From Blastomyces gilchristii SLH14081 (lineage: Eukaryota; Ascomycota; Eurotiomycetes; Onygenales; Ajellomycetaceae): DNA of 64,000 nucleotides. The translations under genes and the position numbers were made by a program. The DNA lies in the NCBI RefSeq assembly GCF_000003855.2, contig NW_003101661.1, positions 397,020-461,019 on the forward strand. Direction: 5' to 3'. Of the stretch, positions 3,851-45,454 are shown in pieces; position 1 is the first letter of the stretch, and each line of letters starts with the position of its first letter. The notes beneath the pieces are model-generated. The model searched no databases and was not told the DNA's origin. It was given only the letters and a program-made list of their open reading frames with translations.

Positions 3851-3857
3851 TTATTTC

Positions 3858-22311: not shown

Positions 22312-23795
22312 AAATCTGCTGTCTCAAAACCTGCTCAAAATTCTGAGAAAACTGAGAAGAATACTGGTCATACTTCTATTTATAGAAAAGTGAAGAAAAA
22401 AATGAAAAAAGAGAAAAACTTTCAAATCTTCAGAAATAGAAGACTTATTCTCAAAATCTTAAATCAGGACATCATACAGAGAAACAAGCTAAACTTAAAT
22501 CTTATTTTTAGAATTAGAAATGAAATTAATCAGCAGTTCTTTTCTCAGTTAATAACTGATATTGAAGTTTAAAAACTAGTTATAGCTTCAATTGAGTCAT
22601 TCTTCTTTGAAAACTTCATCATTCTGACTACAATGTCTGAATTCAGTATGGAATTCCTTATTCAGAATGAGAATCTCTGAAAATCAGCAGTAGAATCTTT
22701 GTTAAACACAACAATTCTATCTGAGAGAGATGAAAAGTGAGATAAATTCATTCTTTATAATATTTCAGTTGAAATTTTTGACTGTGAAGAAGGAATAATA
22801 CTTCTCAAAAATCAATTAGAAGAATATGACTCTATTCAACTGAGAAAAGAGTCTGTATAACTAAATTCAATTGAGTTCAGACAAAGTAGAAGAAATGCCT
22901 CTGTTCTAGTATATATAAAGACACTTGAACAGTCAAAGATCTCTGAAGTGTGATTCAGAAGAATGTATGACTGTTGAATAATAACGCAGCTGCTTCTGAA
23001 CTTGCTTATAAATGTAAAGAGGTCATAAGAGAATTTCTACAATTAATATAAAAGACTCTATTCTGATTTATTCAGATGGCTCAAAAAACGAGAATTTGAA
23101 TAGATTAGGCGCAGGCATTGCTTATACTGAAGATAATATTAACTTTATCTCAGATTTCTGAAATCTAGGCTGTGAAAGTGAAGTCTTTGATGCTGAACTA
23201 TTTATAATAGTAAAAGCTTTCAAACTTATTGAAATAAAATCTCATAAAAGAGAAAATAGTTTGAAAGAGATATGAATATTCTCTGATAGTCAAGCTGCTT
23301 TAAAAAGACTTAGAAATAGTCAGATTCATAATGATCAAATGAATCTTGAACTGATCTTAAACTCTGTTTTAAAAATTCAAAAGAGAAGAATATCAAAGCT
23401 GATAATTTATCTGCACTGAGTTCCTGCTCATATGAATATTTATGATAATAAATTGGCTGATTCAGCTGTAAAAAAAGGTTCAGAACTAAGCAGATCTATT
23501 CAAAAAATTGTGTCCTAATCTTTTATAAGGAGAAAAATAAAAGAATCTTGTTTAGACAAGTGAAATGAAAGCTGGCAGAAACAAAAGAAGAGTATACATT
23601 ATTCAAGATTTGAAACAAAATTCAAGTGAAAATCTTGTTCAATTAAATGTAAAAAGAAAATATTCTCATCTATAATACAGCTAAAACTAGGACATGGCTA
23701 TTTCAAATCTTATATACAAAGATTTGATGATAGATTTGATTCAATAGAATGCTCATTCTGCAATGCAAATGAGAATCCTGAGTATATTGTAATTG
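22312..23795 (+). pseudogene. LINE copy L2, rearranged (ORF1 part joined to RNase H part)
   Basis: The left part (22,312-22,944) matches the middle of LINE ORF1 (38,088-38,722 in L3), including a basic segment with YRKVKKKMKKEK. After an 80-bp segment absent from L3 (22,945-23,025), the sequence jumps to ORF2 RNase H, equivalent to L3 42,700. There the catalytic blocks are well kept: YSDGSKNE (about 23,077), AELF, FSDSQAAL and the final ADSA. The middle of the LINE, with endonuclease and reverse transcriptase, is absent. The C-terminal cysteine region follows up to 23,795, where the gypsy-2 LTR cuts in. The LINE sequence that should resume after that element was not found. This copy is less mutated than L3 and L4. 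Confidence 0.75.
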
Positions 23796-24087
23796 TCACG
23801 CCCCTGGCCGCGCCAAGGCCCCGCTGCGGTTCCACACGGCCCATCGCTTTCATATGAATGATTCCATCCATCCCGCAGGCCGTTCGAACCGGTTTCCAAC
23901 CACTCTATGACATCATTTGAATATATCATAGAAAGATTCAATTGATGAATATGAGAACTCTGCTTCTATACAAGGTCAGCAGATTACTCTTTCTTGATAG
24001 TGAGATACTGCTGAGGTATCACTTCAGCTATTCTTACTTGTGAAATGAGAGAAGAGTATTCACTCATTGTCTATATAGAATAGCTAG
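23796..24087 (+). repeat. gypsy-2 5' LTR
   Basis: Starts TGTCACGCCCC directly after LINE sequence. The first 110 bp are strikingly GC-rich and look unmutated, while the rest is AT-rich. The same sequence in mutated form starts at 44,725, and its last part (ending near TAGAATAGCTA) recurs at 50,655-50,740. From these shared limits I place the end near 24,087. The LTR boundary is not proven by a complete second copy. Confidence 0.65.
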
Positions 24088-25440
24088 ATGCTGGCTTCTT
24101 ATCAAAGAAGTCAGTGATTTGTTTTTTCTTCTACTGAAATATATATAAGAGTTACTGTGTGTCTCATACAATCTTCTTAGTATATAAGTATCATATCTGT
24201 GATATTCTCATAATAACTCTGTAGCCTACAAGCTTGCTATTCAAGCAAGATAGTCAAGCTCACTTATACAGCTTCTTAAATAACTACTTCTATATAACAC
24301 TGCTGACTAGTCATCACTTCAGTTCTATTATATTACAATTCAAATTGCTCAATCTGATTATCAGTTTGAATTAGTTAAGCTTTAATAGACTGATATGATC
24401 TCATGCATCTGTACTGAGACTGATCTGACCTCACTCTCTGAGAAAAACACTATATCATTCTCTAGAGTGTGTACATCTCTACTCTGACAGAAATCTGAGA
24501 TTTCTGAACTCACTGCACATTTTAACATGAGCTCTTCAATCATTCTATCACTGTTACAGTCTCTACACATCTACATCTATTATAGAGATAGAGAGATTAA
24601 GATCAGAGATTCTCTGAGATATAAGAGAAATATCTTGTCTGAATTTCACAGCTTTATCTGTATTCTTGAACAGAAATTCTGCCTTAATCTGAGTTAGTAT
24701 AATACTCATAAGTTACAAGTAATATACACTGTCAACCTCCTTGAAGACATCTCTGTGACTACTTGAATCATCAAGAAGAGAGAGCTTGAGTATATCAATA
24801 CTATTATAACTTAGAAAGAATTCAAGGACTTTCTACTGAATTAAATTGAAGATCACTGTAATCATAGCTTCACAGTGACACAGTGATTCAACTCATTATA
24901 TTAATAAGATAATGAGAATTCTTTCAATTTCAATGTAAGATTTGAAGAATATTAAGAGAAATTAATTGATGATTTGAATCAATTAAAGATACAGCTTTAA
25001 CTTATGAAGCTGACTCATAAGATGCAGATAATAATATCACAGTATCAGAGTTTATCAATTAATTACACTGAGCTTATCAATCTGACTTTTCAGATCTATT
25101 TGAATAATTAATTCTCTGAGAAAAACATTAATAAGATTCTTTCTAAGTAATTAATAATAAGATCTAAATGATATCATGACAGCTTCAGTGTAGAGAAAGT
25201 AAAGAAGAATTTTAAGTATTCTGATTCTTCACTCACTGTGAAGAAATATTAAAAAAGATTTAATAAAGATCTCTGTTTCAACTGCAGAGCTGATGATCAC
25301 TATATCAGTGATTATAAGAAGCTGAAGAAGAGAAGAAACTGAGAAGATATCTTCTCAAAGTTAACTTCTCTTCTGATAAATGTATCTGTGAAAGATAAAG
25401 AAGAGAAAGAAATGAAGAATTAATAATTCTCATATCTCTG
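24088..25440 (+). pseudogene. gypsy-2 leader and gag relic
   Basis: A decayed gag follows the LTR. The capsid-like part near 24,920-25,130 includes FNVRFEEY. A zinc knuckle at about 25,277-25,318 reads C-F-N-C-R-A-D-D-H-Y-I-S-D-Y, a CX2CX4HX4C box with the last Cys changed to Tyr. Start and frame at the N-terminal side could not be fixed. A minus-strand open frame at 24,382-24,570 is a shadow. Confidence 0.65.
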
Positions 25441-28400
25441 AGTTTATATTACAATCACAATGTATACTCTGAATGAGAAGATACTAGTGAGATGTCTACT
25501 CAACTTCAGAGTGAATATTAACTTCATATTCTATTTCTTTTCTTTGATGAAGAGTTGAAAGAAGATAGATCTGTCAGATTATATGAAATTTACTGATGAA
25601 ATGAAATATCACTGTTTTAACATAATTTAAGTGAAGTGTATAATCACAGACTCAGAAGAAATCTTTAAGAAGAGCAGTCTGTTTCTTCATACAGTCAATA
25701 TCATAGATAAGAATGTCATTCTAGATCTCTTATAATTGAGAGAAAACAATTCTCTCATTGACTGAGTCACTCAGACATGACAGTATCATCTCACTAATGA
25801 AGAGACAGTGATAGAGAAATCTGAAGAGTTTCATCAGAAGAATCTTGAGAAAAAGATAGAGTTAATATACTGTATAGTAGATGACTGAGACTTGAGAATA
25901 GATGAAAAAGTCATCACTCTCACTGTAAGATTGATAGCAGTATTCATTATTAAAGATGAATATACACAATATCTCTTTATAGATTATAAGAATATCTTTT
26001 CAGAAAGAGAAGCAGTGAAGTTTTCTAATATCAAGATATGATATAAGATTCATCTTGAATACAGTGTAACAGTGTTATACAGGCCTCTTTATAACTTATC
26101 TGTAAAGGAATTGAATGTTCTGTATAAATATCTTGAAGAAGTGCAATCAAAGAACTGAATATACTTATTAAAAAGTTCAGCAGAAGCATCTATACTCTTT
26201 ATATCTAAGAAGAATAGTAGGCTATGTCTATACATAGACTACAGAGGTCTTAATAAGATGACAGTTAAGAATCACTATTTATTATCATTAATTAATGAGA
26301 TGATCAATTGATTATCTGAAGTAAAGATGTTCTTAAAGATTAATATATAGAATATCTATTATAGAATCAGAGTTAATGAAGATAATATTTAAAAAACAGC
26401 TTTTTATACTAAGTACAGTAATTTTGAATATCTTGTTTTATCTTTTAATCTTTATAATACTTCAGTTATCTTTCAGATCTATATAAATGAGATACTGTGA
26501 GGCCTTGTTGACATCTTCTGTATAGTATATCTGAATGACATTCTAATCTTCTTGAAATCAGAGAAAGAATATGATACTCATGTTTAAGAAGTGTTGAGTT
26601 GCTTAAGATAGTATTAACTCTATATAAACACTGAAAAATGCTCATTCTACATGCAGAAGATTGATTTCTTAGATTATATTATTGAGATGAACAGTATTTC
26701 AATGAACAGAAGTTAGATCTCTGTTATTGAGAACTGACTGATACTGCAGATGTACTGTGAGATGTAGATATTTCTAGAATTTATGAATTTCTACAGATAA
26801 TTCATCTATATATATTCACAGATTACTGTTCTTCTTACAGATCTGTTAAAGAGAAGTGTGAAAGACAGAAAAACAGAACTGTTTATTCTCACTCAAGACA
26901 TTACATAGATATTTATAGAATTGAAACAAGCTTTTACAGATATCACAATACTGAATTACTTTAATCCTGACTTACTCAGTCAGTGTAAGACTAATACATC
27001 TGAGAATGAGATCTGTGAAATATTTTCACAGTTAATATCAGAGATCTTTCAATATTGAAAGAATCAGAGAATAATCACTTCTGAGAATACAGATAATGAA
27101 TTATCTGTGAGAGAAGACTTTTTCACAGAGTCTATAAGACACTGTAAATAAATATCAGTGATCTTCTTCTTCAAGAAGTTATTACTTATGCAGAGAAGAT
27201 ATGATACTCATGATCAGAAGATGTTAGTAATTATCAAATTCTTTAAGATCTGATAATATTATCTTCAGAATAGTAAGTACTCAGTGTAAGTTCTCACTGA
27301 TTATATAAATCTGCATTACTTCTTGACAACAAAGAGCTTGACAGAATATCAAGCCAGGTGAGTGAAGCTGCTTTCAAAGTATGATTTCTATATCTGATAC
27401 TGTTCAGGTCAGCTTAATCTCACTAATACACTGTTTAGACAGTCTGATTATAATATTATTAATATGAAGAAGAATTCTATAAAAGAATCTCTGTCATCAC
27501 TGCAGAAGAAGCTGACTGTAGAGAATTAAAGTTCTCTGAAGCTCAGAAATGACACTGATAAGACAGCTGTATAACTCAGTATAGAAGATGAAAGAAAACT
27601 CAGATCTCTGTAGAGAACTGATACTGAAGATCATAAGCTTCTTATATTATATCTTACAATCATTGAATTGATAAAGAATGAAACAGTCTACAATCTTTCA
27701 ACTCAACTACTTTTGAAATTCATTGATAAATTATAGAAGAAGAATGTCTCTACTACAGCTTGAATTCAGAAGTTGAAGAAGAAAGAATTCAGTTTAAACT
27801 TGAAAGAGACAGACTCTGAGTAGAGTAATATCACTAAGAAACTAAGTCACTGATAACTAGAAGAAGATGAACTTCTACTACTGAATAATTCAGTCTTTAT
27901 CTCTCATAGTAGAGTGATGTGTCAGAAGTTATTAAGAATTCATTATAATAATTTCCATGTAGAACACTTTAGATTAGAGAAGACTGAGAAGCTTTTAAAA
28001 TATAAATATATTTAAGACAAGCTTCAGACAGATATCAAAGAGTATATTAAGACTTACAATATCTATTAAAGAATAAAGATCTTATAATATAAGTAATACA
28101 GTGAGTTAGTATCACTGTCTGTTTCAAAGAACTTATAATAGAATCTATTAATGAATTTTATAGTTGATCTGCTGAAGTCAATAAGAGTTAAAGAATATGA
28201 CTCAATTTTGATTATTATTAATCACTTCACAAAGATAGTCAGATATATTTCTACTTATAAAAAGATTAAAGTCTCTGAATTAACTGACCTGTTTTTAGAT
28301 ATTATTATTCATGATCACAGTACTCTGAAATCATTGATAACAGATTAAGAATTTCTCTTTATCAGTAAATACTAATTGACTTTTTACTATTATCTTATAA

Positions 28401-28597
28401 TAAGATGTCTTCTCAGTACTGTATTTCATCTGCAGACAGATGATCAGACTGAATATCAGAATCAGACACTAGAACAGTATCTTTAAGCATTCTATTTATA
28501 TTATCAGAATGATTGATCTAAACATCTTCTAACTGCTGAATTCATATATAATAATGCAAAGAATGCAATCTTAAAGATATCTTCTTTCTATACTTAT
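25441..28597 (+). pseudogene. gypsy-2 pol relic (protease to integrase core)
   Basis: The conserved segment after the protease reads VILDLL...ENNSLID (about 25,715-25,760). Reverse transcriptase covers about 26,080-26,720, with LYRPLYNLS, LCLYIDYRGLNKMTVKN and the catalytic box YLNDI near 26,528. RNase H follows. The integrase zinc region (H...H from about 27,940, both Cys mutated) is followed by the core, where 65 codons stay open (28,151-28,348, starting MNFIVDLLKS). Element F interrupts it at 28,597, and it resumes at 34,215. The family differs clearly from gypsy-1 in sequence. Confidence 0.85.
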
Positions 28598-28867
28598 TAT
28601 AAGGGGTCTACGCCGAATAGATTGATATAATATTATAGGTCTTATGTAACAAAGATAAAAACATTAAAGAAGGAAAGAAAGAGAAAGTGCAAGAATCAGT
28701 GATCAAGGTGGATATTTATATGTGTATGTGGTGGCGTACGCGGTGAAGCTTCAGAGTGGAAGAATATGCGCGTGTTCATAGCGGCCGCGGATCGGTGATC
28801 GGGAATGGAAGAATCTATGAAGTGTAATGAAATAGTCTATATGATTGATCAGGTGCAGCCTATCACA
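28598..28867 (-). repeat. gypsy-1 element F, 3' LTR (short variant)
   Basis: A 270-bp LTR from TATAAGGGG to TATCACA. It lacks about 38 bp present in the A, C and E LTRs, in the region between GATCGG and GAATCTATGAAG. The partner at 33,943 has the same gap. CTTAT flanks it (28,593-28,597 and 34,215-34,219). Confidence 0.88.
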
Positions 28868-31800
28868 TTAGCCCCCTCTTTTCAGAAGCAGTTCTCATCA
28901 GTCAAGAGTCACTGTTTCAGATAATACAGAACTCAGAGTCCAGGTCAGTTGATTGTAACTGACTCATTTCACAAGATATTGTCAGCTGCAGCCGCGGGAT
29001 CTCTCATTGAGAATATCTTCAATCTCTCACTCAAGCTCATTATCTTCTTCTATGATGTCTGGCAGTTGTCAGTCAGAAGTCAGCTGAGAAGGAAATGAAT
29101 CAGTGATAGTGCAGCAGAGCAAGCTTGTATGAAATACATTATGAATTTCTGATGATGTGTCAAGATAATAGTTGTGACTATCTAGAACTTCTATCACTTT
29201 ATACCTGATGTAGCAGTAGTCTAGTGTACAAGATGAATGTATGATTCATATATTCTTGAGATTCAATTATACAAGATCTTCTATCTTATACTGCTCTGTG
29301 AAATCTTGTCAGATATTAATTTGATCTTCTTGATCATGTTTCACAGTTGTCATGAAGACTTCTGCTCAGTCACAGATATCTCAGAGCTTTATTACTATAT
29401 TATCAGTGATCTGAATCAGACTGCAGAGGTTCAGTATGAACTGTGAAATCTCTAGAAGATTCAACACTTTCATGTAATATCTGTATGTAAGAAAGAATGA
29501 GCTTATATCTATTAAAATAGTATCTTGACTGTTAATAGTGATCTCTGTGTGTAGAAGAAGATCATGTCAATCATCTTATAAGTAGTTACAGAACTTATAA
29601 AGATAATTCTTTACAGTCTGAATTATCTGTTCTGATGCATCATTGATCTTGAGATGATAGACAGTTGACAGACAGTGTGTAATCTTGAGAATTTAACAGA
29701 TTCTTGTTCAGAGAGTACTCACAAATTGACAGCTCTGATTCAATACTATTAATCTCAGCAACTCATACATTCAATAGAATGAACTCTGTAAGAAGACTTC
29801 AGTGACTTGTTCAGTGTTCATCTTATTACAAGATTTCAATATTATATTCTTACTTAGTCAGTCAATGATGATCAGAATGTTTCTATAACTCTTACTCTTA
29901 GATAGATTAATAGTGAAGTTAATTACTACATCTTATCAGATTCTATCAGAGATATTAAGTGATTTCAGTAGATCTTTTCTACAGTTCTTTTATAAGATAA
30001 TAGAAGAACAGTAATTACAGTTTGAGATAAAGTATCTGATACTGTTTAATATCTCAGATCAGTAGAATTCTCAGAAGATCATTCTATACAGTTATTCATA
30101 GCCTGAATAATCAGTTATATATAAATCATGCATCTCTTGCATTATCTGAGTGTGTAAGAGTTTTCAGTGAGAGATTCAGTGTTATTTACAGAATTGTAGA
30201 GTGTTATTATTATTGATTAAGCATTCTGAGATATCAGTTCTTATATATAGTTTTAGAGAGAATCAGAGTGCTTTTTAATATACTGCTTCAGTGAGAATCT
30301 GAAGAAGTTCATCAGTTTGAGCTACTGTATATCACAGTTCATTCAGTGTAGAGAAAGTGAAGATATCAATGTCAGTTCTAATCAGAGAAGCATGTATGAT
30401 GCTGTAAGCTGTTTCATCTTGATCAACTAATATCTTTGAATTCAAGAGTCAGTGATCTCAGTTTATTCAGTGAGTATCTATTACATCAGATGATATATCT
30501 TACTCTCATTGTGAGAGAACATCTATTATCAAGTTCTGACTGTCAGAGTGATAGTGTATTGTAAAATGAAAGCAGCTTAGAAACTCAGATCATTGCATCT
30601 GTCATTCAGTAAGTTTATAAGTAGTTATGAAGTATTTGAGATTCTTATAATCTGTGACTATCTCAAATTCAGAGACACTTCAGAGTTCAGAGTCTCATTC
30701 TTCTAAACAGTGTATAATTATAAGAAGTTTCTTATTATAGATCTTATAATTGCATTCAATGAGACTCAGTTTCTTAGACATGAAGACATATAATTGTAGA
30801 ATATCTTTATCATCATATTAGAATATCCCTTCTTCTAAAATATAATCAGCTTCAATAACTGTCTTAACACAATTCAGATAGAATATTATTAGAGAAGTAT
30901 TAATAAACATCTTCTTTATCTGTGTAAATACAGCTTCAGTATTCACTGATTATTAAAATACTGAGTCTTTCTTAGTAAGATCTGTAAGTGATCTTATGAT
31001 ATCTGAGAAGTTTTATATAAATCACTGATAGAAGTTAGCAAATCTGATGAAGCTTTATACATCTTTCATAGTATACAGAGCTTCTCATTCAAGAATGATA
31101 AAGACTTTCTCAGAATTTATTTAAATCTTCTTACTAGCTTCTATAATAGAACTCAGATACTTGATACTCTTGACTTTAAAATTATACTTATCAATATCTA
31201 TCAGTAGTTCTGTTTCTCATAGCTGTTATAATATCTTTCACACATACTCTTAATATTCTTTTCTGAATTCATTGATAAAGATGAGAATGTTATCTAGATA
31301 AGTAGATACAAACTTATTAAGAAAATCTCAGAGTGTTCAGTTGATGTACTTCTGAAATATACTGAAGACATTAGTCAGTTCAAAGAGTGTGACTATTCAT
31401 TCAAAGAGATTATAATATGTTTAGAATACTGTAAGTCATTCATCTTCTTTGATGATATGAATCTTATGAAATGCAGTGATAATATCTAGTTTTATAAATT
31501 ATTGAGCTTATCTGATTCATGCTAGAGTTTCATTGATAAGAGATAAGAAATATTAATCTTTCTTTATCAATCTATTCAGATCTCAGTAGTTCACACAGAA
31601 TCAGAGTTCTTCATCTGGTTTCTTTACAAAGAGAATAGAGACTGCAGTGAAAGAGTTACTAATACATATGAATTCTTTATTCAACAGATTATTAAGTGTC
31701 TTTTAAAGAAGAAGAAGTTCATATCAGAATATGTTATAAAGAGAGTCTTATAATAATTTGAGATTCTTATCATTCTTTTTCTCTAACTTGATACTGTGAT

Positions 31801-32410
31801 TCACTTCAGAATCTTGTAAGAGAGATATATTTATAATATTATCTTATCAGAAGATATCTAGATATTCATGATATTATTAAGAGAGTTTTGTATAAGAATC
31901 TGTTATTATAATATAGAATAACTTTTCTAGAGTCTTTTTAATATCAGTCAGACTGATAAAATAGATTGATATATAGTTCTACTGTCAGTGATTCTTTCAG
32001 TGACTTCTTTTTCTAAGTATTTTATAGACATTGACAGAGATCTGTATCAGATCAATAGTCTTGTGAATATCATCTTTATGAATTCTATTGTTATTAGAAA
32101 ATATCAAGCTTCTGTTTTAAGCATTCAATAAGATGTCTTATTCAGATAGTCAGATAAGTTCTAATATAAGATTATAATCAAGATTATCAACTTTATATAT
32201 ATAGATATCTTCATATTAATGTTCTTTCACATCTATGATCAGCTTCATCATGTAACAGATACAAATGTCTTTTAAATCATCAAATTCTGCAAGAAGTCAA
32301 GGTTTTGATAAAGAAATACACTGAAGATTATAATGTCTTATAACTGAAGATTTTATCATTATATAGTAATATAGACTGCTGTCTATCATGGCTTTCATAT
32401 TATATATATT
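28868..32410 (-). pseudogene. gypsy-1 element F pol relic
   Basis: A full-length pol on the minus strand, heavily mutated. Protease lies at about 32,400-32,120. RT follows, with YLDNI at about 31,305-31,290. RNase H is at about 30,900-30,450 and the integrase core at about 29,950-29,650. The chromodomain is near 29,070-28,880. All parts align with D without large gaps. A 69-codon plus-strand frame (29,237-29,446) is a shadow. Confidence 0.83.
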
Positions 32411-33612
32411 ATCAATCACAGTAGATATAAGAATCACATTCATTATTATCTTCTCTTTAAATTATTATCATCTGATCTCTTCAAGCTTCTGTTTACAAAT
32501 TTGAATAGAAGCTAATCTTTTTTCTGTTTCATCAGAGTATTTTTATAGTTATCTTCTGAATCTTCCTCTAATGTAATGTGATTAGCACAGACAGGCACTG
32601 ATTCATTCTTTAAATGAGAAGACACTGATCTTTCTCTCAAGTATGAAGACATATAGATTGATCAGCAGTTGAAAGCAATATGTTCTGATTGATTACAGTT
32701 GATACACACTTCATGTTAATATTAATTGATGACTTCTTTGAGAGTGATCTCAGAGACTCAGAAGTCTGTCCAGACAGTGAAGACTCTTGCTTATGTATAG
32801 ACATTCAAGTCTACTCAATTCATGACATCTGCATCATTATTATTCCTCAGCACAGATGTATGAGTCACTGAAATGTAATATCTTCTACCACTGTTCTGTA
32901 TATTCTTGAGCTTGATAAGATAATCATTCATTGTCTGAAGCTGTGTATAGAAGTCTTCATAAGTCTGGTCTTTGTCTGCACTTATAAGAGTCTGTAAGAG
33001 TTTGAAAGTTAATGTCTTCTTGAGCATGCTAATCTTCATTCAATTCTCTCAAGATTGATCACCTGCTTCTAGAATCTTGGTGTTGAAGTCAGGAATAAAT
33101 ATTGTAAGAGAAGTGTTTCTCTGTCAGACACTCTGTAATCAATTTAATACTTTCTGTTATATAGCAGTGTCTCAGAACAGAATATCAAGATGTTTGATAA
33201 TATTATCAGATATTCACAATGCTGATTTATATGCTTTTATTCATGAATAAAACTTCTATTTCATGTGATTCTTTAATCATTCATTGATATATCAATCTTA
33301 ATTGATTAATAAACTGATGAAATCTTCATCTATACTCAGTTTCATGAGCATTTTCATTCTTCATAATAAGTAGAGAGTGAGATCAGAAGTATTGAAATAT
33401 ATGAAAGTATTTAAGCATTCTTTCAGTGCTTTTATATTTGATTCTGTAGATGTTGAAATTGCATGAGTTAATTATTGAATCTCTTTGTATTAAAGTTATT
33501 GAGTTGCATGTATATCAGCTATTTATTATTATTTTAATTTTAACATTACTTAAAGCTACTGTGATATCATATCTATGCTTGTGTTCAAGAGTTTCATATT
33601 ATTATTAGACAT
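32411..33612 (-). pseudogene. gypsy-1 element F gag relic
   Basis: The minus-strand gag has its conserved start ATG at 33,612. A 74-codon piece stays open (33,039-32,815) and matches the open gag pieces of A and D (DQTYEDFYTQLQ). The leader runs from 33,613 to the LTR at 33,943. Confidence 0.78.
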
Positions 33613-33942
33613 GATTATATCAATCATTAAATGTATAATATCTGTGAAATCTGAAGAAGTGTAATTATATTCTTATATATCTAAGTATCAGAACTCTCAG
33701 ATCTTTTGCTGATATTCTCTTATAAGATTGTATTCTCTTTATAAGATCTTGTTGCAGAGTCAGAGTGACTGATGAGTAAGCTTCTATCTGAGAACTCAGT
33801 GTCTGCTTAACTGTTTAACTGTTTCTCTATGTCTTATATATTGTTACATATTCAGATATCTCTTGATAAATAATTGTTTCTGATGAGAAAATAATGTGTG
33901 AATAATCATTTTCTAATAAGAAGATGATGAATGTTTTTATAG

Positions 33943-34214
33943 TGTAAGAGATCTACACTGAATAGATCAGTATAATATTATAGATCTTATGTAACAAAGA
34001 TAAAAACATTAAAGAAGGAAAGAAAGAGAAAGTGCAAGAATCAGTGATTGAGGTGAATATTTATACATGTATGTGGTGGTGTACGCGGTGGAGCTTCGGG
34101 GCGGAAGAATATGCGCGCGTTTCGTAGCGGCCGCGGATCGGCGATCGGGAATGAAAGAATCTATGAAGTGTAATGAAATAGTCTATATGATTTGATCGGG
34201 CGCAGCCCGCCACA
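33943..34214 (-). repeat. gypsy-1 element F, 5' LTR (short variant)
   Basis: A 272-bp LTR ending GCCCGCCACA, followed by the target duplication CTTAT. It is richer in CG than the internal region. Confidence 0.88.
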
Positions 34215-34920
34215 CTTATTATGAATATAATTCTTCATTACTCAGTGATATTGTGAATAACATTTCAAAGAGAGAAATAGACAGTCAGAATATTAAATAG
34301 ATACAGAGAACAGAGTATCTCTCAGTATCAGAAGTAAAAGTAAGATTGAAACTTTTGAATAAAATTTATAAGAAGACAGTGAAAAGTATTCACTGTGTTC
34401 AGAAGTAACAGATAAAATACTATAATTGAAAACATCTTTTAATAAAGTTCTTGATAGAGGATTAAGTACTACTTTCAGCAAAGAATATCAAGATAATAAG
34501 ACTGTGTAAGAAGCTCTGTAAGTAGTGACTAAAATCTTTCTCAGTAATAAGAGTAATAAGTAAGCAGATATATGAGTTGAAATTACTCACAGAATTGAAA
34601 TTAATTCATTCTATTTTTCACATTTTCTATTTAAAGCTCTATAAGTAACACTCTGAGACAGAGCTGTCTCAGTCAGATAATATTGAGATTGAGAGTGATA
34701 TTAAATATCTTATAAAGAAAATATTGAATAAGTAAATATATTACAGTAAGCTTCAATATCTTATAAAATAAGAAGATTATTTATTATCAGAGAATTTATA
34801 AGAATCACTTAAGTATTTGAAAAATGCTGAGAAAGAGATTATAAGCTATGAGACAGCTAGTAGAGACTGCTCTATTATATATCAGAGACATTGAATAAGA
34901 AATACTACTTAAGACTTCTC
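34215..34920 (+). pseudogene. gypsy-2 pol end: integrase C-terminus and chromodomain
   Basis: This resumes the gypsy-2 integrase after element F. It opens with YEYNSSLLSD, then LLSAKNIK (about 34,470), the 'W/L-S-x-N-I' block that follows the integrase core, and HLK-type spacing leading to LKLIHSIFHIFYLKLYK (about 34,590-34,640). A chromodomain follows at about 34,700-34,870, with IKKILNK, KLQYLIK and EDYL, then the 'WEP..LKNA' block read as ESLKYLKNAEKEI. This makes gypsy-2 a chromovirus too. Confidence 0.85.
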
Positions 34921-34968
34921 ATTTTTCTTAAAAAGTTTTTTTAGAGATAATCTTACAGTGATAAGCTA

Positions 34969-35259
34969 ATGTCTTATGAGCTCTGTAACACTCTTCTTCT
35001 ATTTTCTCTTAAAGAGTATTTTAGAAGTTTAATAAGACTATATAAGTGTAAAATTTCTGAAGTAATTAGAGAAAAGAAATATTTGAAATTAATAAAAAAG
35101 ATTAATATTATTAATCTACAGACTGCTGCTATTCTAATGAGGCTGCAGCTCACTGAAAAAGTAAAAAGAAGAATCAGAGTCTACTCATTAATAATTATAC
35201 TCTCATTAAACTCATTCTTCACTGTTAAAGTCTTCAGTATTAGTATTTTTATCTGCTGA
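34969..35259 (+). pseudogene. Open segment after the gypsy-2 chromodomain
   Basis: A 96-codon open frame beginning MSYELCNTLLL, rich in Lys, Ile and Leu. No family was recognised. It lies just downstream of pol and just upstream of the longer degraded frame that starts near 35,222 in another frame, so it could be the N-terminal part of that product after a frameshift, or chance. Being open at this length in such AT-rich DNA is mild support only. Confidence 0.35.
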
Positions 35260-36019
35260 GAAGTTAGCACTGCAGCACTGCAGAAGAGTATGAGAAATAT
35301 ATAAAATATTAACTTATTAACTTATAAAGTATCTCAGTTATCTACTTCAATTGAAGTGAGATTCTCTTCAATTAGTGATTGATCTCTACAGTACTTTCAA
35401 TAACAGTGTTAGCTGATCTCTTCTTAAGATCAGTTATTCTGAGATGTTTTTTCATCTTGAAGATTCATATCTTTGTCTTCTTTTACAGATAAGTAAGAAG
35501 AATCTCTTCAGTCTTGACAGAATTTATTAACACTTGAAGCTCTGAGACTCTCACTCTATACTGCTTAAGCATCTGAGCTTCTTATCAGAGCTGATATGAT
35601 GTCTTTCTGTGAGATAATACTTACAGAAAGACAGAAGTCCTTGTTGCAGATACAACAGAAATAATAAGAGTGAAAGAAGAGATAAGTGTATAAAATTCTT
35701 CTCTTCTTCAGCTGCTTAGTGCAGTACAGATAAGTAATGATATCAGTCAGAGACTGCATCAGAGCCTTCTCACAGAGAGAAGATAAAGAAACTGTGAGAC
35801 TCTGCAGACTCAACTCAGCAGTATTCTGAGCAGGGCTCAGCCATGTCACAGGAGAAGATCTACAGATTGAGCTTCTCAGAGCTGCTGTCTCTGAAACCAA
35901 GCTCTCTCTGAGGTTCTCTTCAAATGATCACACAGGGTCATACACCACTGTGTTGATTGAGAGGGGGGGGCGGCGTCGCAACAGCAGTGAGAGGGGCAGA
36001 GAATGAATCAGATACAGAT
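35222..36019 (+). pseudogene. Accessory ORF downstream of gypsy-2 pol, part 1
   Basis: A single frame (codons starting at 35,222) can be read for about 266 codons with 14 in-frame stops, nearly all TGA or TAA, as expected from decayed Trp, Arg and Gln codons. It contains blocks such as DSYLCLLLQISKKNLFSLDR and LLKHLSFLSEL, a Cys-rich basic block near 35,642-35,690, and MSQEKIYRLSFSELLSLK after an ATG at 35,843. The end is Gly- and acid-rich. It is cut at 36,019 by the LINE and continues in the same frame at 44,059. A 111-codon minus-strand frame (35,900-35,565) overlaps it and is probably its shadow. No homologous family was recognised. Confidence 0.5.
36008..36019. repeat. Left target-site duplication of LINE L3
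   Basis: TCAGATACAGAT occurs here and at 44,047-44,058, directly after the LINE (AAT)n tail. Removing the LINE and one copy restores one reading frame across the site. Confidence 0.6.
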
Positions 36020-36414
36020 CATGTTCTGATCACTGATTCTTGACTGCTATATCAACTGCTCCACCACGAACTCACTCGATTTTTTGAATAAGAACCCGCC
36101 GATAGATTCATCAAAAAGCCCTTGATCATACAAGCATGTGGACCCCATCGCCGACCACATACCCCGTGTGGTGGTGGAGATATCCAGCCAAATGTGAACT
36201 AGACGTTGTTCAAAACTCCCGTGTGGGATTATCCCCCATTCACCCCTATCACACCACAACCCCGGACCAAAGTGCCATACAAAATGTAAGATGAAGAGAC
36301 ATAGTCATATGCACCAATCTTCTTGATTTTGAAAGATTCTCAATCTGTAATTGTGAAGATATCTGAGAAGTAATCTCTGTGAAAACCCTGTCCATCTTTG
36401 ATGTTTCAAAACAT

Positions 36415-36720
36415 CAACATCAAGTCTCACTCTCATATCATCCTTCTCAATCTGGCCCATTCTCAGCAGAAAAATACAAAAAGATATCTCAGTGATAATA
36501 TCAAGTATATAATCAATAAACACTTCTGAAGTGCAATCTTTACAGTCTGTTGTCAGTGTATCTAGACTTCAACATCAAGTCTCATTCTTGTACTATTTCT
36601 CTCAATCTGGCTCATCTCTGACAGAATAATACAAAAAGATACCTTGACAACAGCATTCAATACATAATCAGCAGATAACAAGTCAACAGCACATCAACAA
36701 CTATAAAATCAGTATATCTC
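36415..36720 (+). repeat. Two tandem units of about 155 bp
   Basis: Units begin at 36,415 and 36,570 with CAACATCAAGTCTCA and share an AATCTGGC(C/T)CAT block and an AATACAAAAAGATA block at the same spacing. A third, less mutated version lies reversed at 3,858-4,146. Confidence 0.7.
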
Positions 36721-37596
36721 AAGATCTGACTGAACCTTTGATCCCTGCACAGTGAGATATATTAAATCTAGTTTTAATATCTCAATATTCAATAGATTCT
36801 GCAAGAGATTGAGAACAGTAATACTAGATTTCTATTGAATTTAAGAATTAACTCTATATTGATATAATCATTGACAAAGTCTTCTATTTTAAGATATAAA
36901 TAATCAGTTCCTCTACATCTCACTAATAATATTTATATTATCATATAGAAACAGACTTATATTCTCTATAATATTAAGACTCTGAAGAGAGAAAGTCTTG
37001 ATAGAGAGTATATAGTAGTATATATCTTAGTAGTTTCTATCTCATTCTTCTGCAGCAGTTAATGTAAAAAAAAAAAAAAAGATCTTAGAAATAGTTTTTT
37101 ACTTCTCTTGAAAAAGTAAGATGTTTTTCTCTGAATTTTATACAATATTCTTACAAAGAATAAAAAACAGAGCTGTTTTCTGTCATAATTTTATATTCTT
37201 TTAAGTAAGAATTACTTTTTCAGTGACTGAAGAGCTTTTATTAATACTTAATTCTTTTTTATACTCTTTATTAACTGATTTGAGTTGTACACTTGTTGTG
37301 TAAGAAGAATTGAATGATTTAGAATAAAATTGAATAGTTTTAATCAATTTCTCTGTAAAAAATTGATTTATTTTTTATCAGTTTTTCTCTTAAAAACTGT
37401 TATATCATCTGATTCATTATCAATTGATATTATACTCTTTCTCACTGTATCTCAAGAAAGAGATTGTAAAGATTTTATTGATTTATCTCAAAAATCAATT
37501 TTAGTTTATTAGATTCTCTTTAAAAATCTAATCTAGTTACTGAACTAGTGTGAAAAAAATCAGGTGTTTTATATACAAAAGTCTTTTATTCTTCTT

Positions 37597-37674
37597 TTGA
37601 AACAGTCTGATCAACTTTTCAATTGAAAACAGACTTAGAAATATCTCAATTGAAACAGTCTGATCAACTTTTCA
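37597..37674 (+). repeat. 53-bp tandem repeat before LINE ORF1
   Basis: TTGAAACAGTCTGATCAAC and the bases after it occur at 37,597 and again at 37,650. It lies just upstream of the ORF1 start. Confidence 0.8.
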
Positions 37675-37687
37675 TTGAGTGAGAATA

Positions 37688-39690
37688 ATGAGTTTAAAAA
37701 TACACTTAGTTGATGTGAAAAAAGATGCTTTCTCAAATACTATTTCTAAGATTGAAATTCTGAAGAGAAGAAAGAAAGAAGAAATAGAGAAATAACAAGT
37801 TCTTGAAATACAGAAACTTGAAAAAGTAAGCAAGAGTCTTGAAAAGTAGTGTCTAAGTGAGATGAATGAAGAAGTTCTGTTAATTTTTCATACTCAGGCT
37901 AGACAACTACAGAAGATGATCAAGTTCAAACTTGGAATCTCAAACACAGTTTAAAAAACATTGAAAATTTCTAGTATAATCACTGACTCTTCATCTTACT
38001 CTTCTTCTTTCTTTTTTTCTACTTCTTCTTCTTCTTTGAATCAGAAGAAAATATATACTCAAGCAGCTGAATCTACTGTCTCTAAACCTGCTATCTCAAA
38101 ATCTGCTTAAAATCCTGAGAAAACTGAGAAGAATACTGCTCATATCTCTATTCATAGAAAAGTAAAAAAGAAAATGTAAAAAGAGAAAAACTTTCAAATC
38201 TTCAGAAATAGAAGACTTATTCTCAAAGTCTTAAATCAGAATATTCTGCAAAGAAACAAGCTAAACTTAAATCTCATTTTCAGAATCAGAAATGAAATTA
38301 ATCAGCAGTTCTTTTCTCAGTTAATGACTGATATTAAAGTTCAAAAATCAGTTATAGCTTTAATTGAGTTATTATTCTTTAAAAACTTCATCATTCTGAC
38401 TACAATGTCTGAATTCAGTACTGAATTTCTTATTCAGAATGAGAATCTCTGAAAGTCAGCAGTAGAATCTTTACTAAATATAATAATTCTATCTGAAAGA
38501 GATGAAAAGTGAGATAAATTCATTCTTTATAATATTTCAGTTGAAATTTTTGACTGTGAAGAAGAAATGCTACTTCTCAAAAATGAATTGAAAGAATATA
38601 ACTCTATTCAACTGAGAAAGAAGCCTGTATAACTAAATTCAATTGAGTTCAGACAAAGCAGGAGAAATGTCTCTATTCTAGTATATATAAAAACACTTAA
38701 ACAGTCAAAGATCTCTGAAGTAAGAGTAGTAGATTTAAAAATGAGAGTTCATGAATACAAAGACTCAAGAATGAATCTCAAAGCTCAAACATAGTGTTCA
38801 AACTATCAAAGATATAAATACTTTACAATCTCATATTTTAGAGACTCAAAATGTGTATTCTGTATCAGAGATCACAAAACTAGTGAGTATAAATGTGAAA
38901 TATGCTTAAAAAGAGATGAAATATGTTAATATACTCTGCTTAAGTGCTCTAATTGTAAAGAAAAACATGCATCTAGCTCAAAAGAATGTATATTTGCTTC
39001 TAGAACTTAAAAGAACTGAAGAAAAGATAAAGCTCAAAGTTAATTTAGAACTGAAGAGAAGAGTCAAGTCAGTAGACTTATAACTACAAGCTTAAAAAGA
39101 AGAAACTCTCAACTATTTAAATCTTTAAACTTCAATTCTTCAGCTGAATGTAAATAGAATTTGAATTCTTAAACTTCTGTTAAGATTAGAGAATTGAGAA
39201 ATAACTCTGATAATAAACTAGATATAATAGCCCCGGTGGCTGAATGGTTAATGCGGCCACCCGGTAGCACCTTGGCGTGGGAAACCAAGGCGCGTGGGTT
39301 CGAAACCCGCAGGGGATACATTAAATCTGGAACTCAAGCACCTCAGGTTTCTAATAAATACAGAGGTGTACAAATCGCTCCAATGAATTGCTCTATGTTC
39401 CTGGGCTGGGAAGTTATTATCGCATGTATCTAATTGTCACTCCTTTGTATTTTCCTATGTTCTTGTTATCTTGGCGTGGTCTCAACACCTGTATTTCCTC
39501 CTGTATAACCAACACTTGACCTGTATTTAACATCATGCAAGGACTCATCATAAGCTCCGCTTGCATATGAGTATAATGGAAGAATAATAATAATAATAAT
39601 AACTAGATATAATATAAGCAGTTGAGATTTCTTCTTTTCAAAATAGTTATAATCTACTATCTGATGATAGTGACTAGATTCTACTCTATC
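37688..39690 (+). pseudogene. LINE L3 ORF1 (nucleic-acid-binding protein) relic, split by a SINE
   Basis: It probably starts at ATG 37,688 (MSLKIHLVDVKKDAF). In order there is a charged, probably coiled-coil region, a Ser-rich stretch (about 37,980-38,035), a basic segment (YRKVKKKM-like, 38,150-38,190) and a central domain. Near 38,870-38,985 lie two Cys/His boxes, ending KCSNCKEKHASSSKEC, that resemble the zinc knuckles of Tad1-type ORF1 proteins. Frame is interrupted by TAA and TGA codons and by SINE copy 2 at 39,230-39,600. In known LINEs this protein binds the element RNA. Confidence 0.75.
39230..39600 (+). mobile_element. tRNA-derived SINE copy 2
   Basis: A 371-bp SINE in ORF1 of L3. 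The 14-mer AACTAGATATAATA flanks it (39,216-39,229 and 39,601-39,614), and the empty site is seen in L4 near 59,300. The head GCCCCGGTGGCTGAATGG resembles a serine-type tRNA. The A box is at 39,237-39,247 and the B box at 39,297-39,307 (GGTTCGAAACC). The body is about 200 bp and the 3' end is GAAGAAT(AAT)n. It is almost identical to copy 1 and shows little of the mutation pattern of its host element, so it is young or too short to be mutated. Confidence 0.92.
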
Positions 39691-39699
39691 TCTACTCTC

Positions 39700-42600
39700 T
39701 TTTAGTATGAATATATAATAAAAACAATAAAAAAAGTTTAAAAACTCTTTAAAAATCATATTTATTCAAAATAATGTGAATAGAAACTTAAATTGTATTT
39801 ATTCTTATCTTCAAATTATATTTGAATAAAAAGTTGATTTTATACTACTTCAGAAACTGAATTTTGATGCTGAGTAAAATTACATCATTTCTTATTCAAG
39901 CTACTACTGCTTTCTATCTTAAAAGTCTGAGATAAAGTCAAGAGTAGTGATCTATGAAAGAAAGAGATCAAGATATTAATTTAATCTAAGATTTAATATC
40001 ATGTCTGACTCTGATATTCTGATGAGTGATATTATAGATAAAGAAAATGAGTTTAATACTATACAGCTTATAAATATCTATAATAAGAAGTTATTGAAGA
40101 AAAATAACAATATCTGAACAATTGATAGAGAATTTCTGAACATAACTTTATCAAGAAACTCTATAATTGCAGGAGATTTCAATGCATATTATCTCTGATG
40201 AAATTCAGAATATAAGAGAGTAGTGAGAGCTGATAATCTAATTGAATGAATCTTTAAGTATTTAATAGATTTGATTAATAAGTCTGATCAATAAACATTC
40301 TTTAGAAAAGATATGAAACAGAAATCTATTATAGATCTAATCTTCATATCATAAAATCTAATGAAAAGAAGACTTGTAAACTAATTTATTAATTCAAATA
40401 ACACATCAGAATCAGATCATGAGATTATTCAATTTAATATTGAACTGAGTGAAAAATAAATAAGTGAAAATTCTCTTCTCTCTAATCAGTTTAACTTTGA
40501 AAAAGCTGATTGAAAAGCAGTTAAAGAAAGTATAAAACTGTTAAAATCTAAAAGATAGAATGAGCTATATTGAAATTCTGATCAAGATATCTCAAATGAA
40601 ATGCTTAAGAATAGAGTGAAGCTTATTACATCTATTATTCTAATAAGTGTTAGAGATAATATTTCAAAGAGAAAATCTTCTGAGTATTCAAAATCTTGAT
40701 GAAATGAGAATATCTCATCTAAAAGAAAAGAATTAGCTACTGTTAGAAGAGATTGAAAGAATGATATAATATCTGATAAAGAGTTCAAAGCTGTCAGAAA
40801 TGAATATTTTTCAGATATTAAAAGAGCTAAAACAGACTGCTGAAATAATTTTCTTGAAGAAGTATAAGAAAAGAAAGTTTTTAAAGCTTTTAACTATACT
40901 AAAACAAGAAATGTAGCAAAACTTTCAGTCTTAGAATATGAGTTTCAGAATGAATCATATATAGCAAACTCTTTTGAGAAAAAATGTTAAACTTTTATAA
41001 GAATTCTCTTTCAGAACTCATCAGATTCAGATTCAGATTCAGAGAAAGAGAATATATCACTTCTCAACTACATTAATGAAAATGACTGGAAATGGCCTGA
41101 TCTTACATAAGATGAATTAGAGTCAGCTATCTTCTCAAGTTCTATTAAAACTGCTGCAGAGCCTGATTCAATTAATCACTTAATTATTTAAAATATATAT
41201 TCCTACTTAAAGAATGAATATTTTGAGCTCTTTTTCAATCTCTTGAAAAATGAATATTATTCTGAATGCTGGAGAGAAGTCACTGAAGTAATTCTTATAA
41301 AATCTAATAGAAACACTTCAATTTCTAAGTCATATAGAGTAATATCTCTATTAAACTGTCTAGAAAAGATTTTAAAAAAGATAATAGTTACTCAACTATC
41401 TTTTATAAGCTCTATTAATAACTCTCTTTTATTCAGTGAATAAATGAGAGATAGAAAATAATATTCTATAATTAATACTGTTCTCTCAGTTATTCATAAT
41501 ATTTAAATAATAAAGTATGAAGATCTGATCTCAACTGCAGTTTTTATTGATATAAAAGAAGTATTTAATCATATTTCAAAGTCAAAGTTAATTCAGACTT
41601 TAAAGATATTAAAACTATTACTTTCTCTAATAAAATGAGTTAACTATTTTATATTTAAAAGAATTATACAACTTTTCTTTGATGAAATGAAATAAGACAA
41701 GACTGAGATAAAAATAGAAGTATTATAAGAATTTTCAATCTCATCTATTTTATTTACAATATACACTGTATATCTATTTAAAAATAGAAATATAAGAATA
41801 GTGTGATCTCTGAGTTATATAAATGATATTAATCTAGTCTACAGCTTAAAAACTATTAAAGAGAATTTAAAAGTGATTGAAGAAGCTGTAAAGAAAATCT
41901 TTATTAGAGTAGATATCAATTAAATTCAATTTAATATAAATAAAACTGAGTTAATTCATTTCTTTTCTAAATTCAATGAGAAAGAACTATCTCTAACTCT
42001 TTTAAATAGAGAGATTAAACTCAGTGTAAATATTAAATGATTAGAAGTATGATTAAACTTCAAGTTAAATTTTAAATATTATATTCAACAAAGAACTGTC
42101 AAGACAGAAAGACTATTGAATAACATAATCAGACTATCAAATACAGAGAGAGATCTATTCTTTCAGACTATGAGATAGTTATATATAGTCTGTATTACAT
42201 CAGTAGCTGATTATGAAGCTCAAGTTTAATGAAATAATCAAGAGAATTTCACTGAACTCTTTCAAAGTCTGTAAAACAGAGTCTTGAGAAGAATTCTAGA
42301 AGCATTCAAATTATCTTCTATTAAAGCAATGAAAATTGAAGTTTCAATTTCTTCTTCTATTATTAGATTTGAAAAGACCTGTATGAACTATACACTGAGA
42401 GTTATAAAGATAAGCTTAAATTATATAATCAGAGAAAGAGTCTCTTCTTCATTTTTATTAATTAACTCTGAAAATAAACTGGATTAGAATAGATTTCTTG
42501 ATTGAAATGAAAATAATTCTTTAAAGAAAATGTCTTCTTAACTTTACAGACTATACTCTCTGATTAAAAATCAATTTTTTTCTTTAAATGTTGAAAAAGT

Positions 42601-43660
42601 GAATCATGAGAAGTTATCTCTCTGAAGAGAAAAGCTTGAATCTCTTATAAACTTATAAATAAGTGAACTATCAAAAGAGAAAGAATATGAACAGTATTTG
42701 AAGAGAATTTCTACAATTAATATAAAAGACTCTATTCTGATTTATTCAGATGACTTAAAAAATGAGAATCTGAATAGATTAGACACAGACATTGCTTATA
42801 CTGAAGATAATATCAATTTTATCTCAGATTTCTGAAATCTAGACTGTGAATCTGAAGTCTTTGATACTGAACTATTCATAATAGTGAAAGCTTTCAAACT
42901 CATAGAAATAAAATCTTATAAAAGAGGAAATAGTTTGAAAGAGATATAAATATTCTCTGATAGTCAAGCTACTTTAAAAAGACTTAGAAATAGTCAGATT
43001 CATAATGATCAAATAAATCTTGAACTGATCTTAAACTCTGTTTTGAAAATTCAAAAGAGAAGAATATCAAAGCTGATAATTCATCTACACTGAGTTTCTG
43101 CTTATATGAATATTCATTATAATGAATTAGCTGATTCAGCTGTAAAAAAGAGTGCAGAATTAAACAGATCTATTCAAAAAATTATATTCTAATCTTTTAT
43201 AAAGAGAAAAATAAAAGAATCTTGTTTAGACAAGTAAAATGAAAGCTGACAGAAATAAAAGAAGAGTATACATTATTCAAGATTTCAAACAAAACTCAAG
43301 TGAAAATCTTGTTTAATTAAATATAAAAAGAAAATATTCTTATCTATAATACAGCTGAAACTAGAACATGGCTATTTTAAATCTTATATACAAAGATTTG
43401 ATGATAGATTTGACTCAATAGAATGCTCATTCTGCAATGTAAATGAGAATTCTGAGTATATTATAATACACTGTGCATTATACAATAGTCTCAGAGCCAG
43501 ATTGAAAGAGAAGTATGATCTAAATTAATTAAATATGAGATTCTTATTCTCAACTGAGACAGGAATTAAATACTTAATAGACTTTCTATCAGAAACTCAA
43601 GCAGCTATAAGAAAATGACTAAATTCAGAATTATCTGAATATGAAGAGGAGAAAATTAAT
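39700..43660 (+). pseudogene. LINE L3 ORF2 relic (endonuclease, reverse transcriptase, RNase H)
   Basis: A Tad1-type ORF2. The apurinic-type endonuclease (about 39,765-40,400) includes IIAGDFNAY (about 40,162) and a DLIFIS end. Reverse transcriptase covers about 41,060-42,530: a 66-codon piece stays open (41,243-41,443, with YRVISLLNCLEKIL), and the catalytic box is YINDI at about 41,816-41,830. RNase H (about 42,700-43,180) has YSDD in place of the YSDG of L2, then FSDSQAT and ELADSA. The end has a CSFC...H..C cysteine box (about 43,428). It would nick the target and copy element RNA there. Many stops make it inactive. Confidence 0.88.
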
Positions 43661-44046
43661 CAGATATAGTCTGTTAAAACAGTTATACACTATCTTTTAA
43701 TAATTTGTTTTGTTACAGTCTCTCTTTACTTTATCTTTTTCTTTCAATTTCTTTCTATCTATCTATTTAATGTGTCTATCTTTAAGACTGTGTTCTTTTT
43801 CTCTTTTCCTTTGTCATGATATTGTCAAATGATTTCAAAGTATCAGGAGATGTTAAAACACTGCATTTTGTAAACAGTTTTTATATTCTGGGCTGGAATT
43901 TTCTGATTTTGCATATCTGAAATTGATGAATGTATAATAGTTAACTTTACAGATATAGGAAAAACCCTGAGAACTAAAAGTTCTCAGGTAGATGTCATAG
44001 TCTCTGACTGCATACATCTATAATTAAAGAATAATAATAATAATAA
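43661..44046 (+). other. LINE L3 3' untranslated region and (AAT)n tail
   Basis: Conserved in the tRNA-headed element (21,480-21,898) and in L4 (63,360-63,736). It ends TGCATACATCTATAATTAAAGAATAAT with further AAT repeats. The SINEs end TGCATATGAGTATAATGGAAGAATAAT in the same way. Confidence 0.8.
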
Positions 44047-44058
44047 TCAGATACAGAT

Positions 44059-44841
44059 GAATCAGCCAGCAGAAGAAATGACATTCCACTGCAAGGTGCA
44101 GCTACTATCACCACGGCTGCAAGAGATGCAGGAGAAGGAGAAGATATGGTAATGAGAGTGATGCTTCTGCAGCTTATTAACACTGCTGTCTCTGCCTTCA
44201 CTCTGACTTTCTTAATGATTATGGAGGCTGCAGCCACATCACAAAGACATTTGTTACTCACTAGAAAACATCAAAATAAGTCTCTTATTATCTCTCAAGA
44301 ATGATACTCTCATACACTCACTATTACAGATGAGAAAGAGAGAGAGAAAAATGTTTCACAGAGAGAGAAGATCTTTTTGAAAAATTCTGTCACTACTGTT
44401 AACTTTGTCTCTAAAAAATACATCACTTTTGCAGAGAATTTCATATATAGAATGAAATATGATGCGAGATCTGTAAGTCACTGTTAACTATGTTTTTCAC
44501 ATTTCAAATCAAGATATAAGAAATCCACTTATCACACATTTGATTTGAATGAAGATGAGAAAAGAAAGATCTATACAGTCAGCAGAAAAACTCATCTATT
44601 TCTTTATATCATGTGCAGCACATGTGCTGTTAAATTAATTGATAATTATTACTATATAATAAAGATAATTTCTAATCTGATAATCTTGAGAGTATTGAGA
44701 CTATGCTCTTAAAGAGAAGAGCATTGTCATATCTCTGACTATATCAAGATCTCACTGCAGTTTCATACAGCTCATTGCTTTTATACAGATGATTTCATTC
44801 ATCTCACAGACTATTTGAATCACTTTTCAACCACTCTATGA
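44059..44841 (+). pseudogene. Accessory ORF downstream of gypsy-2 pol, part 2
   Basis: This continues part 1 (35,222-36,019) in the same frame after removal of LINE L3. From 44,047 to 44,724 there are only three in-frame stops (44,302, 44,485, 44,710) in 226 codons. The frame then runs 38 more codons into the presumed 3' LTR to TGA at 44,839, and the unmutated 5' LTR is also open in this frame up to the same TGA. Visible features are a hydrophobic stretch (LLQLINTAVSAFTLTFLMI, about 44,167-44,223), a charged stretch, a Cys pair HC-x-LC (about 44,479) and CSTC (44,614-44,625). No family was recognised. It may be an extra retrotransposon protein or a captured gene. Confidence 0.5.
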
Positions 44842-44870
44842 TAGCATTCAGATATATCATAGAAAGATCT
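44725..44870 (+). repeat. gypsy-2 3' LTR, first part
   Basis: TGTCATATCTCTGAC and the 145 bases that begin with it align with the GC-rich 5' LTR start at 23,796 almost gap-free. The differences are mostly C-to-T and G-to-A, the clearest mutated-versus-unmutated pair in the window. Element D begins at 44,871. The rest of the LTR is probably at about 50,655-50,745, but 50,591-50,654 does not align well. Confidence 0.7.
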
Positions 44871-45184: not shown

Positions 45185-45454
45185 CTAGAAAAACATTCAT
45201 TATCTTCTTATTAGAAACAATTATTCATCAAGAGATATCTGAACACATAAGAATATGTAAGAAAAGAGAAACAATCAGTTAAAGCAGACACTGAGTTTCT
45301 AGATAGAAGCTTGCTTATCAGTCACTCTGGCCCTGTAACAAGATCTTATGAAGAGAGTAAGACCTTATAAGAGAATGTCAGTGAAAGACCTGAGAGTTCT
45401 GACACTCAGATATATGAGATATTCATATGATTACATATCTGACAATCAATAACC

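Follow-up and report, generated by a model that had tools for sequence, protein, structure and literature searches.

We analyzed a 64,000-nt stretch of the Blastomyces gilchristii SLH14081 genome (74.8 Mb; contig NW_003101661.1, positions 397,020 to 461,019), called the window below, in which a retroelement of the gypsy-2 family lies in several pieces. This family of Ty3/gypsy chromoviruses, ~7.5-7.8 kb in length, is present in high copy number, and its copies are heavily mutated. A first-pass annotation of the window had drawn a long extra reading frame from 35,222 downstream of the gypsy-2 chromodomain, across an inserted long interspersed nuclear element (LINE), into the 3' long terminal repeat (LTR). 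In the form first drawn this frame is not a gene, and an extra open reading frame (ORF) holds up only for a much smaller piece. The family probably possessed a third ORF, read in sense and located after pol and ahead of the 3' LTR, with a coding-like core of 143 codons, and we put the probability of this reading at about 0.58. The core looks coding in that, across the copies, it has no stops of ancestral type, shows the strongest purine periodicity of the element (copy positions 1,300-7,480) and contains mostly insertions and deletions (indels) that keep the phase; none of this holds for the stretches past its bounding stops.

The comparison rests on DNA searches with gypsy-2 in which the best 40 of 530-634 candidates were scored. 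Thirty copies (L009-L028, L037-L046) were used for the matrix tests and were placed by blast pieces against one copy (copy positions below); pieces far off the diagonal or adding fewer than 50 positions were discarded. The core has letters in 28 of these copies and none in L039 and L041. The indels of the 3' part were tested on 24 copies, with L013, L014, L026, L039, L041 and L043 left out for duplications, inserts or missing parts, and indel counts below copy position ~1,300, unreliable where some copies differ, were unused. The first 20 copies had been picked by similarity to the left piece of the frame; the 10 later ones were the next best by pol and are unbiased as to the presence of the region. 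None of these 10 passes directly from the chromodomain to the LTR: seven are continuous through the region to the LTR, L043 carries the region around an insert, L041 shows its first part up to the end of the retrieved DNA, and L039 matches within pol only. There is indeed extra DNA between the chromodomain and the 3' LTR, amounting to 1,833 nt with the LINE and one duplication copy excluded, and the boundary first placed at 44,724 is exact, as the 3' LTR begins with TG at 44,725. Gypsy-2 thus carries this region as a regular component, and the earlier suggestion of an unrelated older element is not supported.

The frame had been said to run singly through 35,222-36,019, where we count 14 stops in 266 codons (20 and 18 in the other plus-strand frames; 21, 18 and 10 in the minus-strand frames), and this part of the claim fails. 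For the right part the reported count, 3 stops in 226 codons, is correct, versus 18 and 18 in the other plus-strand frames. The LINE does carry a 12-bp target duplication (TCAGATACAGAT at 36,008-36,019 and 44,047-44,058), and the codon arithmetic across it was correct. Decay of Trp, Arg or Gln codons had been offered as the origin of the three stops, but those at 44,485 and 44,710 are TAA in 28/28 copies, while the one at 44,302 (TGA in 21 copies, TAA in 6, CAA in 1) ends a shorter open frame. One continuous frame can also be discarded, since in 19 of 20 other copies the left frame is out of phase with the right one, 18 of them showing an identical single step; the two agree in the window because a G-run near 35,960-35,970 is, by eye, one base longer than in most copies. 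The LINE did enter codons of the smaller ORF, so a frame split by the LINE and restored is correct for the last ~16 codons before the insertion and the 81 after it. The hydrophobic stretch with Cys pairs predicted for the product falls, by eye, past the terminator at 44,302, and Pfam gave no match above cut-off for the two pieces of the drawn frame. Between copy positions 5,209 and 6,975 there are 31 shared indels, 19 of them with a length that is not a multiple of 3; the comparison in pol gave none in 1,300-4,480 and two in 4,100-5,130, of which one lies at the edge of the alignment. A codon-like pattern is found in the central 429 nt and is missing across most of the region.

The stops have to be read against the decay of the copies. 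Divergence is almost solely by transitions, with pairwise values of ~0.12 per site versus 0.003-0.012 for transversions in pol. Past copy position 4,200 hardly any CpG is left (0.00-0.08 per 100 nt), apart from 0.4-0.9 retained in mid-core. Both TG/CA alternation at former CpG sites and Gln-to-stop changes are present, and at 170 of 5,624 dinucleotide positions (copy positions 1,300-6,975, all 30 copies) TG and CA are both common and CG is nearly absent, beside CpA changes. The copies carry a mixed CpG/CpA signature like that of repeat-induced point mutation (RIP). Such decay allows stops to be typed as Gln/Arg/Trp mixtures, as TGA-type (Trp or an old TGA), or as fixed TAA/TAG, the last being present in all or nearly all copies. 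Calibration on pol gave a single fixed TAA/TAG column over the 1,254 codons of the true frame and 20-34 in each of the other five frames. Stop counts on kept alignment columns and a first split into hard and soft stops were superseded by this typed-stop test.

The core occupies copy positions 6,106-6,534 on the sense strand (142-143 codons; window 35,830-36,019 plus 44,059-44,304), at the same position in 28 of the 30 fetched copies, those with letters there. Its frame has no fixed TAA/TAG and no TGA-type column in 142 codons, with 4 Gln/Arg/Trp mixtures and 1 other, while the other two plus-strand frames over the same interval have 2+2 and 0+3 fixed and TGA-type stop columns. Mostly-TGA columns bound it at 6,103 (25/28 copies) and 6,535 (21/28). 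The mean number of stops per copy is 1.92 in the core frame versus 11.0 and 9.4 in the other phases, and 0/400 column shuffles were equally low. Upstream, about 50 further codons of the same frame are free of fixed TAA/TAG columns. In the window copy the core has no stop before its terminator and is broken by the LINE plus a one-base shift at the G-run, before which the true frame differs from the one first drawn and after which the two coincide; the possible N-terminal part has stops at 35,683, 35,731 and 35,827, of which the last falls at a column with TGA in 25/28 copies. A tblastn search of the window with a database model matched 35,686-35,970 and 44,047-44,298, and another model ends at 44,301.

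Base composition shows the same interval. The frequency of G in the core is ~0.34-0.35 at codon position 1, ~0.14-0.15 at position 2 and 0.18 at position 3, and the peak of G and of purine at position 1 was reached in 0/5,000 shuffles. The flanks and the LTR gave p=0.26-0.82 for periodicity, and pol windows of core size p=0.0008-0.05 for G. The G peak has the same phase in 4/4 sub-blocks of 5,985-6,535 and p<0.05 in 3/4 (2/4 for purine), and by the purine measure the core exceeds all 163 other windows of its size in copy positions 1,300-7,480. In the 121 nt directly upstream, G peaks weakly at the phase of the core (p=0.045) and purine does not (p=0.80). Shared indels are multiples of 3 in 6/7 cases in the core versus 6/24 outside it (Fisher p=0.007). 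The length of the core keeps the phase in 22/24 copies, 7 of them unchanged; off-phase lengths occur in 12/24 copies in the neighboring block 5,106-6,106 and in 13/24 in 6,535-6,975.

The predicted product is rich in Gly, Ala and Thr. Searched as a sense query it gave 90 matches at E<=1, all of them Blastomyces hypothetical or uncharacterized proteins. One database protein of B. gilchristii SLH14081 matches the translated sequence of one copy without a difference along its whole length, and B. dermatitidis database models run on through the stretch upstream of the core. The sole confident part of the AlphaFold2 model is a helix at residues 129-179, the remaining fold being unreliable. A hydrophobic stretch lies inside this helix (median best 19-residue hydropathy 1.58; at least 1.6 in 43/90 proteins), and since RIP-type changes tend to raise hydropathy the hydrophobic helix is weak evidence. 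An env gene lies downstream of pol and encodes a signal peptide, a glycoprotein ectodomain and a transmembrane anchor; the gypsy-2 product is short, has no Pfam match and shows a hydrophobic helix.

Several observations weigh against a third gene. No ATG is conserved for the ORF across the copies, and a TGA column stands directly before the core in 25/28 of them, which speaks against the upstream extension. The 156 nt before the core are unchanged in length in 24/24 copies, so phase-keeping alone does not mark its left edge. One of the core indel sites is an AAG/GAG tract that slips by 3 anyway and counts little, and several of the outside events are alleles of one site and thus not independent. 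The core is more variable than pol (4.5 versus 0.9 shared transversion columns per 100 nt), and its shared transversions fall by phase as 13:7:7 (p=0.26), suggestive at most; this test is powerless here because it is blank in pol too. Pfam gave only weak, chance-level matches and the PDB none, and the AlphaFold2 model has low confidence (mean predicted local distance difference test score 56, predicted template modeling score 0.31). Automatic gene models have been placed on the antisense frame as well, so the annotation does not amount to proof. A codon-phase test on transversions across the whole element was dropped, as pol itself showed no phase.

The strongest competitor, a minority possibility that we nevertheless take seriously, reads the 1.8 kb as an extended 3' region without coding function, with a GC-richer, purine-biased patch that is open by composition and repeats and was never translated. 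The GC content of the patch (0.42-0.45 versus 0.21-0.34 around it), the Gly/Ala/Thr-rich product with no known domain, the variability of the core, the AAG tract and the absence of a third-position signal would all fit such a patch. Composition alone should have been reproduced by the column shuffles, which keep it and yet never matched the low stop count or the periodicity; the phase is also the same in separate sub-blocks that omit the G-run and the AAG tract, and the periodicity ends at the terminator. A gene on the antisense strand is a quite improbable reading, the least probable of those considered. An antisense frame of up to 239 codons (copy positions 6503-5787) is bounded by TGA columns in 27/28 copies, has one internal TGA-type column (TGG in one copy), 7 Gln/Arg/Trp mixtures and 2 others, is unbroken over 219 codons in one copy, and as a query gave 20 matches, all of them Blastomyces hypothetical or uncharacterized proteins. 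Its openness can nevertheless stem from the sense pattern, because a purine at the first sense position lies opposite the second base of an antisense codon, which leaves few antisense stops. High G at position 1 with low G at position 2 is the usual composition of coding sequence, and it is the sense strand that has it (0.35 and 0.15); in the part read by the antisense frame alone, periodicity does not reach significance (p=0.14 and 0.09).

The first-pass annotation had also raised a captured gene. A host exon taken up by the element and passively carried would agree with the lack of a conserved start codon and with the sharp end of the coding-like pattern, but we consider it unlikely. No protein outside Blastomyces matched in three length-limited searches: no homologue of a host gene was found among proteins of 66-210 amino acids or of about 253-805 amino acids, the search for longer proteins (about 253-805 amino acids, 6,602 candidates) gave none at E<=1, and the only homologues are the Blastomyces hypothetical proteins, although longer or very divergent donors would escape these length ranges. 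The capture claim is therefore unsupported.

If the sense-strand ORF is accepted, gypsy-2 would have carried a short third ORF between pol and the 3' LTR until a mutation process resembling genome defense ruined its copies, and this ORF may begin up to ~50 codons upstream of the core. Since no ATG is conserved, its translation perhaps relied on an internal start or on a subgenomic RNA made by splicing. Just upstream of the core (window ~35,697-35,711) lies a pyrimidine tract with CAG after it; TTCAGCT is kept in 25/28 copies, and the site is a possible splice acceptor. The scan for donor and acceptor motifs was indecisive, the 25/28 of the tract being below the preset 90% threshold, and splicing is a guess. 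The encoded accessory protein would be small and quick to evolve, combining a Gly/Ala/Thr-rich part of low model confidence with a hydrophobic helix at its C-terminus, and may have been associated with membrane or RNA. The fullest version of this proposal, in which a third gene particular to the lineage was expressed by splicing or from an internal RNA start and supplied a small membrane- or RNA-associated protein that aided exceptional amplification, is speculative and more doubtful than the ORF itself.

The layout of the element is given in Table 1. By blast of the window against 20 copies, gypsy-2 pieces lie at 24,338-28,602, 34,214-36,019 and 44,047-44,724, with LTR starts at 23,794 and 44,725. 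The 544-bp LTR starts with TG and ends with CA as in chromoviruses, and a purine-rich tract stands immediately 5' of the 3' LTR. The integrase is of the Tf2-1 type (SH3_Tf2-1, PF24626; 39.6 bits, cut-off 30, E=5.6e-10), and the chromodomain was recognized in copy L036 (Chromo, PF00385; 29.1 bits, cut-off 25.1); that of the window copy at 34,709-34,852 is weak (12.4 bits, E=0.15) and under the cut-off. The pol frame stops soon past the chromodomain in nearly all copies, at copy positions 5165 (TGA 23, TAA 6), 5183 (TAA 28, TGA 1) and 5216 (TAG 25, TAA 2). The insertion point of the nested gypsy copy in the integrase is crossed without a break in 18/20 other copies, L014 and L026 being unmatched left of it.

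Table 1. Layout of the gypsy-2 copy and its insertions in the window.
Feature	Position	Strand	Remark
5' LTR of gypsy-2 (TG...TTACA)	23794..24337	+	initial ~40 bp still GC-rich
gypsy-2 internal region, gag-pol to integrase core	24338..28602	+	domains named by eye from translation
Nested gypsy copy, foreign to gypsy-2	28603..34213		interrupts integrase
Integrase C-terminus, Tf2-1-like SH3, chromodomain	34214..34895	+	pol ends approximately here
3' spacer	34896..35673	+	every frame alike, none distinguishably open; many shared indels with lengths not multiples of 3
Possible N-terminal part of accessory ORF	35674..35829	+	frame of 35,686; ATG not conserved
Accessory ORF core, left piece	35830..36019	+	stop-free; frame of 35,686 to ~35,970, then the frame first drawn
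LINE with (AAT)n tail and own nested repeats	36020..44046	+	inserted within the ORF
Accessory ORF core, right piece	44059..44304	+	81 codons; terminator TGA 44,302-44,304
Non-coding 3' end of internal region	44305..44724	+	TAA in 28/28 copies at 44,485 and 44,710
Beginning of gypsy-2 3' LTR	44725..44870	+	cut by a further nested gypsy copy, 44,871-50,593

The two nested copies of another gypsy family (28,603-34,213 and 44,871-50,593) are opposite to each other in orientation, and several gypsy-2 copies adjoin that family at differing points, as if inserted into it. The LTR starts at window 23,794-23,830 and in L020 (reverse-complemented, ~8,045-8,100) stay rich in GC and CpG; the matching 3' LTR starts of the window copy and L020 are decayed, unlike their GC-rich counterparts. 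At window 39,230-39,600 there is a 371-bp insert resembling a short interspersed nuclear element (SINE), with a tRNA-like head, an (AAT)n tail and CpG still present, and with 98-100% identity in the best 40 of 1,152 candidate places, the window's own included. In its head we noticed by eye what we take to be A-box- and B-box-like motifs; ARAGORN found no tRNA in the insert and Rfam no tRNA match. The insert seems to be young and to have escaped the mutation seen in the longer elements, which would be expected if RIP requires longer repeats.

In plant Athila/Tat elements the interval from pol to the 3' LTR holds env-like or antisense ORFs. Compared by description, they resemble gypsy-2 in having an ORF additional to gag and pol and differ from it in that the gypsy-2 ORF is short. 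Athila/Tat elements are not known to have a chromodomain. PMC2864245 mentions an env-like ORF of Athila and also reports an extra ORF of unexplained function in related elements, which resembles that of gypsy-2 by description. There is precedent for unexplained extra ORFs in related elements, so the kind of feature is not new. LTR-Gypsy-RtPc1 of Paracoccidioides, described in PMC4427930 as 5,740 bp long with two ORFs and 246-bp LTRs, shares with gypsy-2 a pol with integrase and C-terminal chromodomain and LTRs with TG and CA ends. Unlike RtPc1, gypsy-2 is ~7.5-7.8 kb long, has a 544-bp LTR, and extends 1.8 kb past the chromodomain with the extra ORF. No description of the gypsy-2 accessory ORF was found in the open-licence literature consulted, including passages of PMC11540331, PMC4595289, PMC2864245, PMC3248453, PMC4427930 and PMC10799480, and a search of open-licence papers for six gene-model identifiers gave none.

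The analysis shows that comparing copies for the types of their stops, for phase and for periodicity can reveal a lost ORF even where mutation has saturated them, and no sequence need be reconstructed for it. The automatic models on both strands (90 sense, 20 antisense) may be remnants of the element and not host genes. According to PMC11540331, gypsy elements make up 47.5-52.1% of Blastomyces genomes, which have GC-poor tracts full of them (PMC4595289; PMC11540331). The accessory gene, if true, would be a testable candidate for why gypsy elements expanded in Blastomyces.

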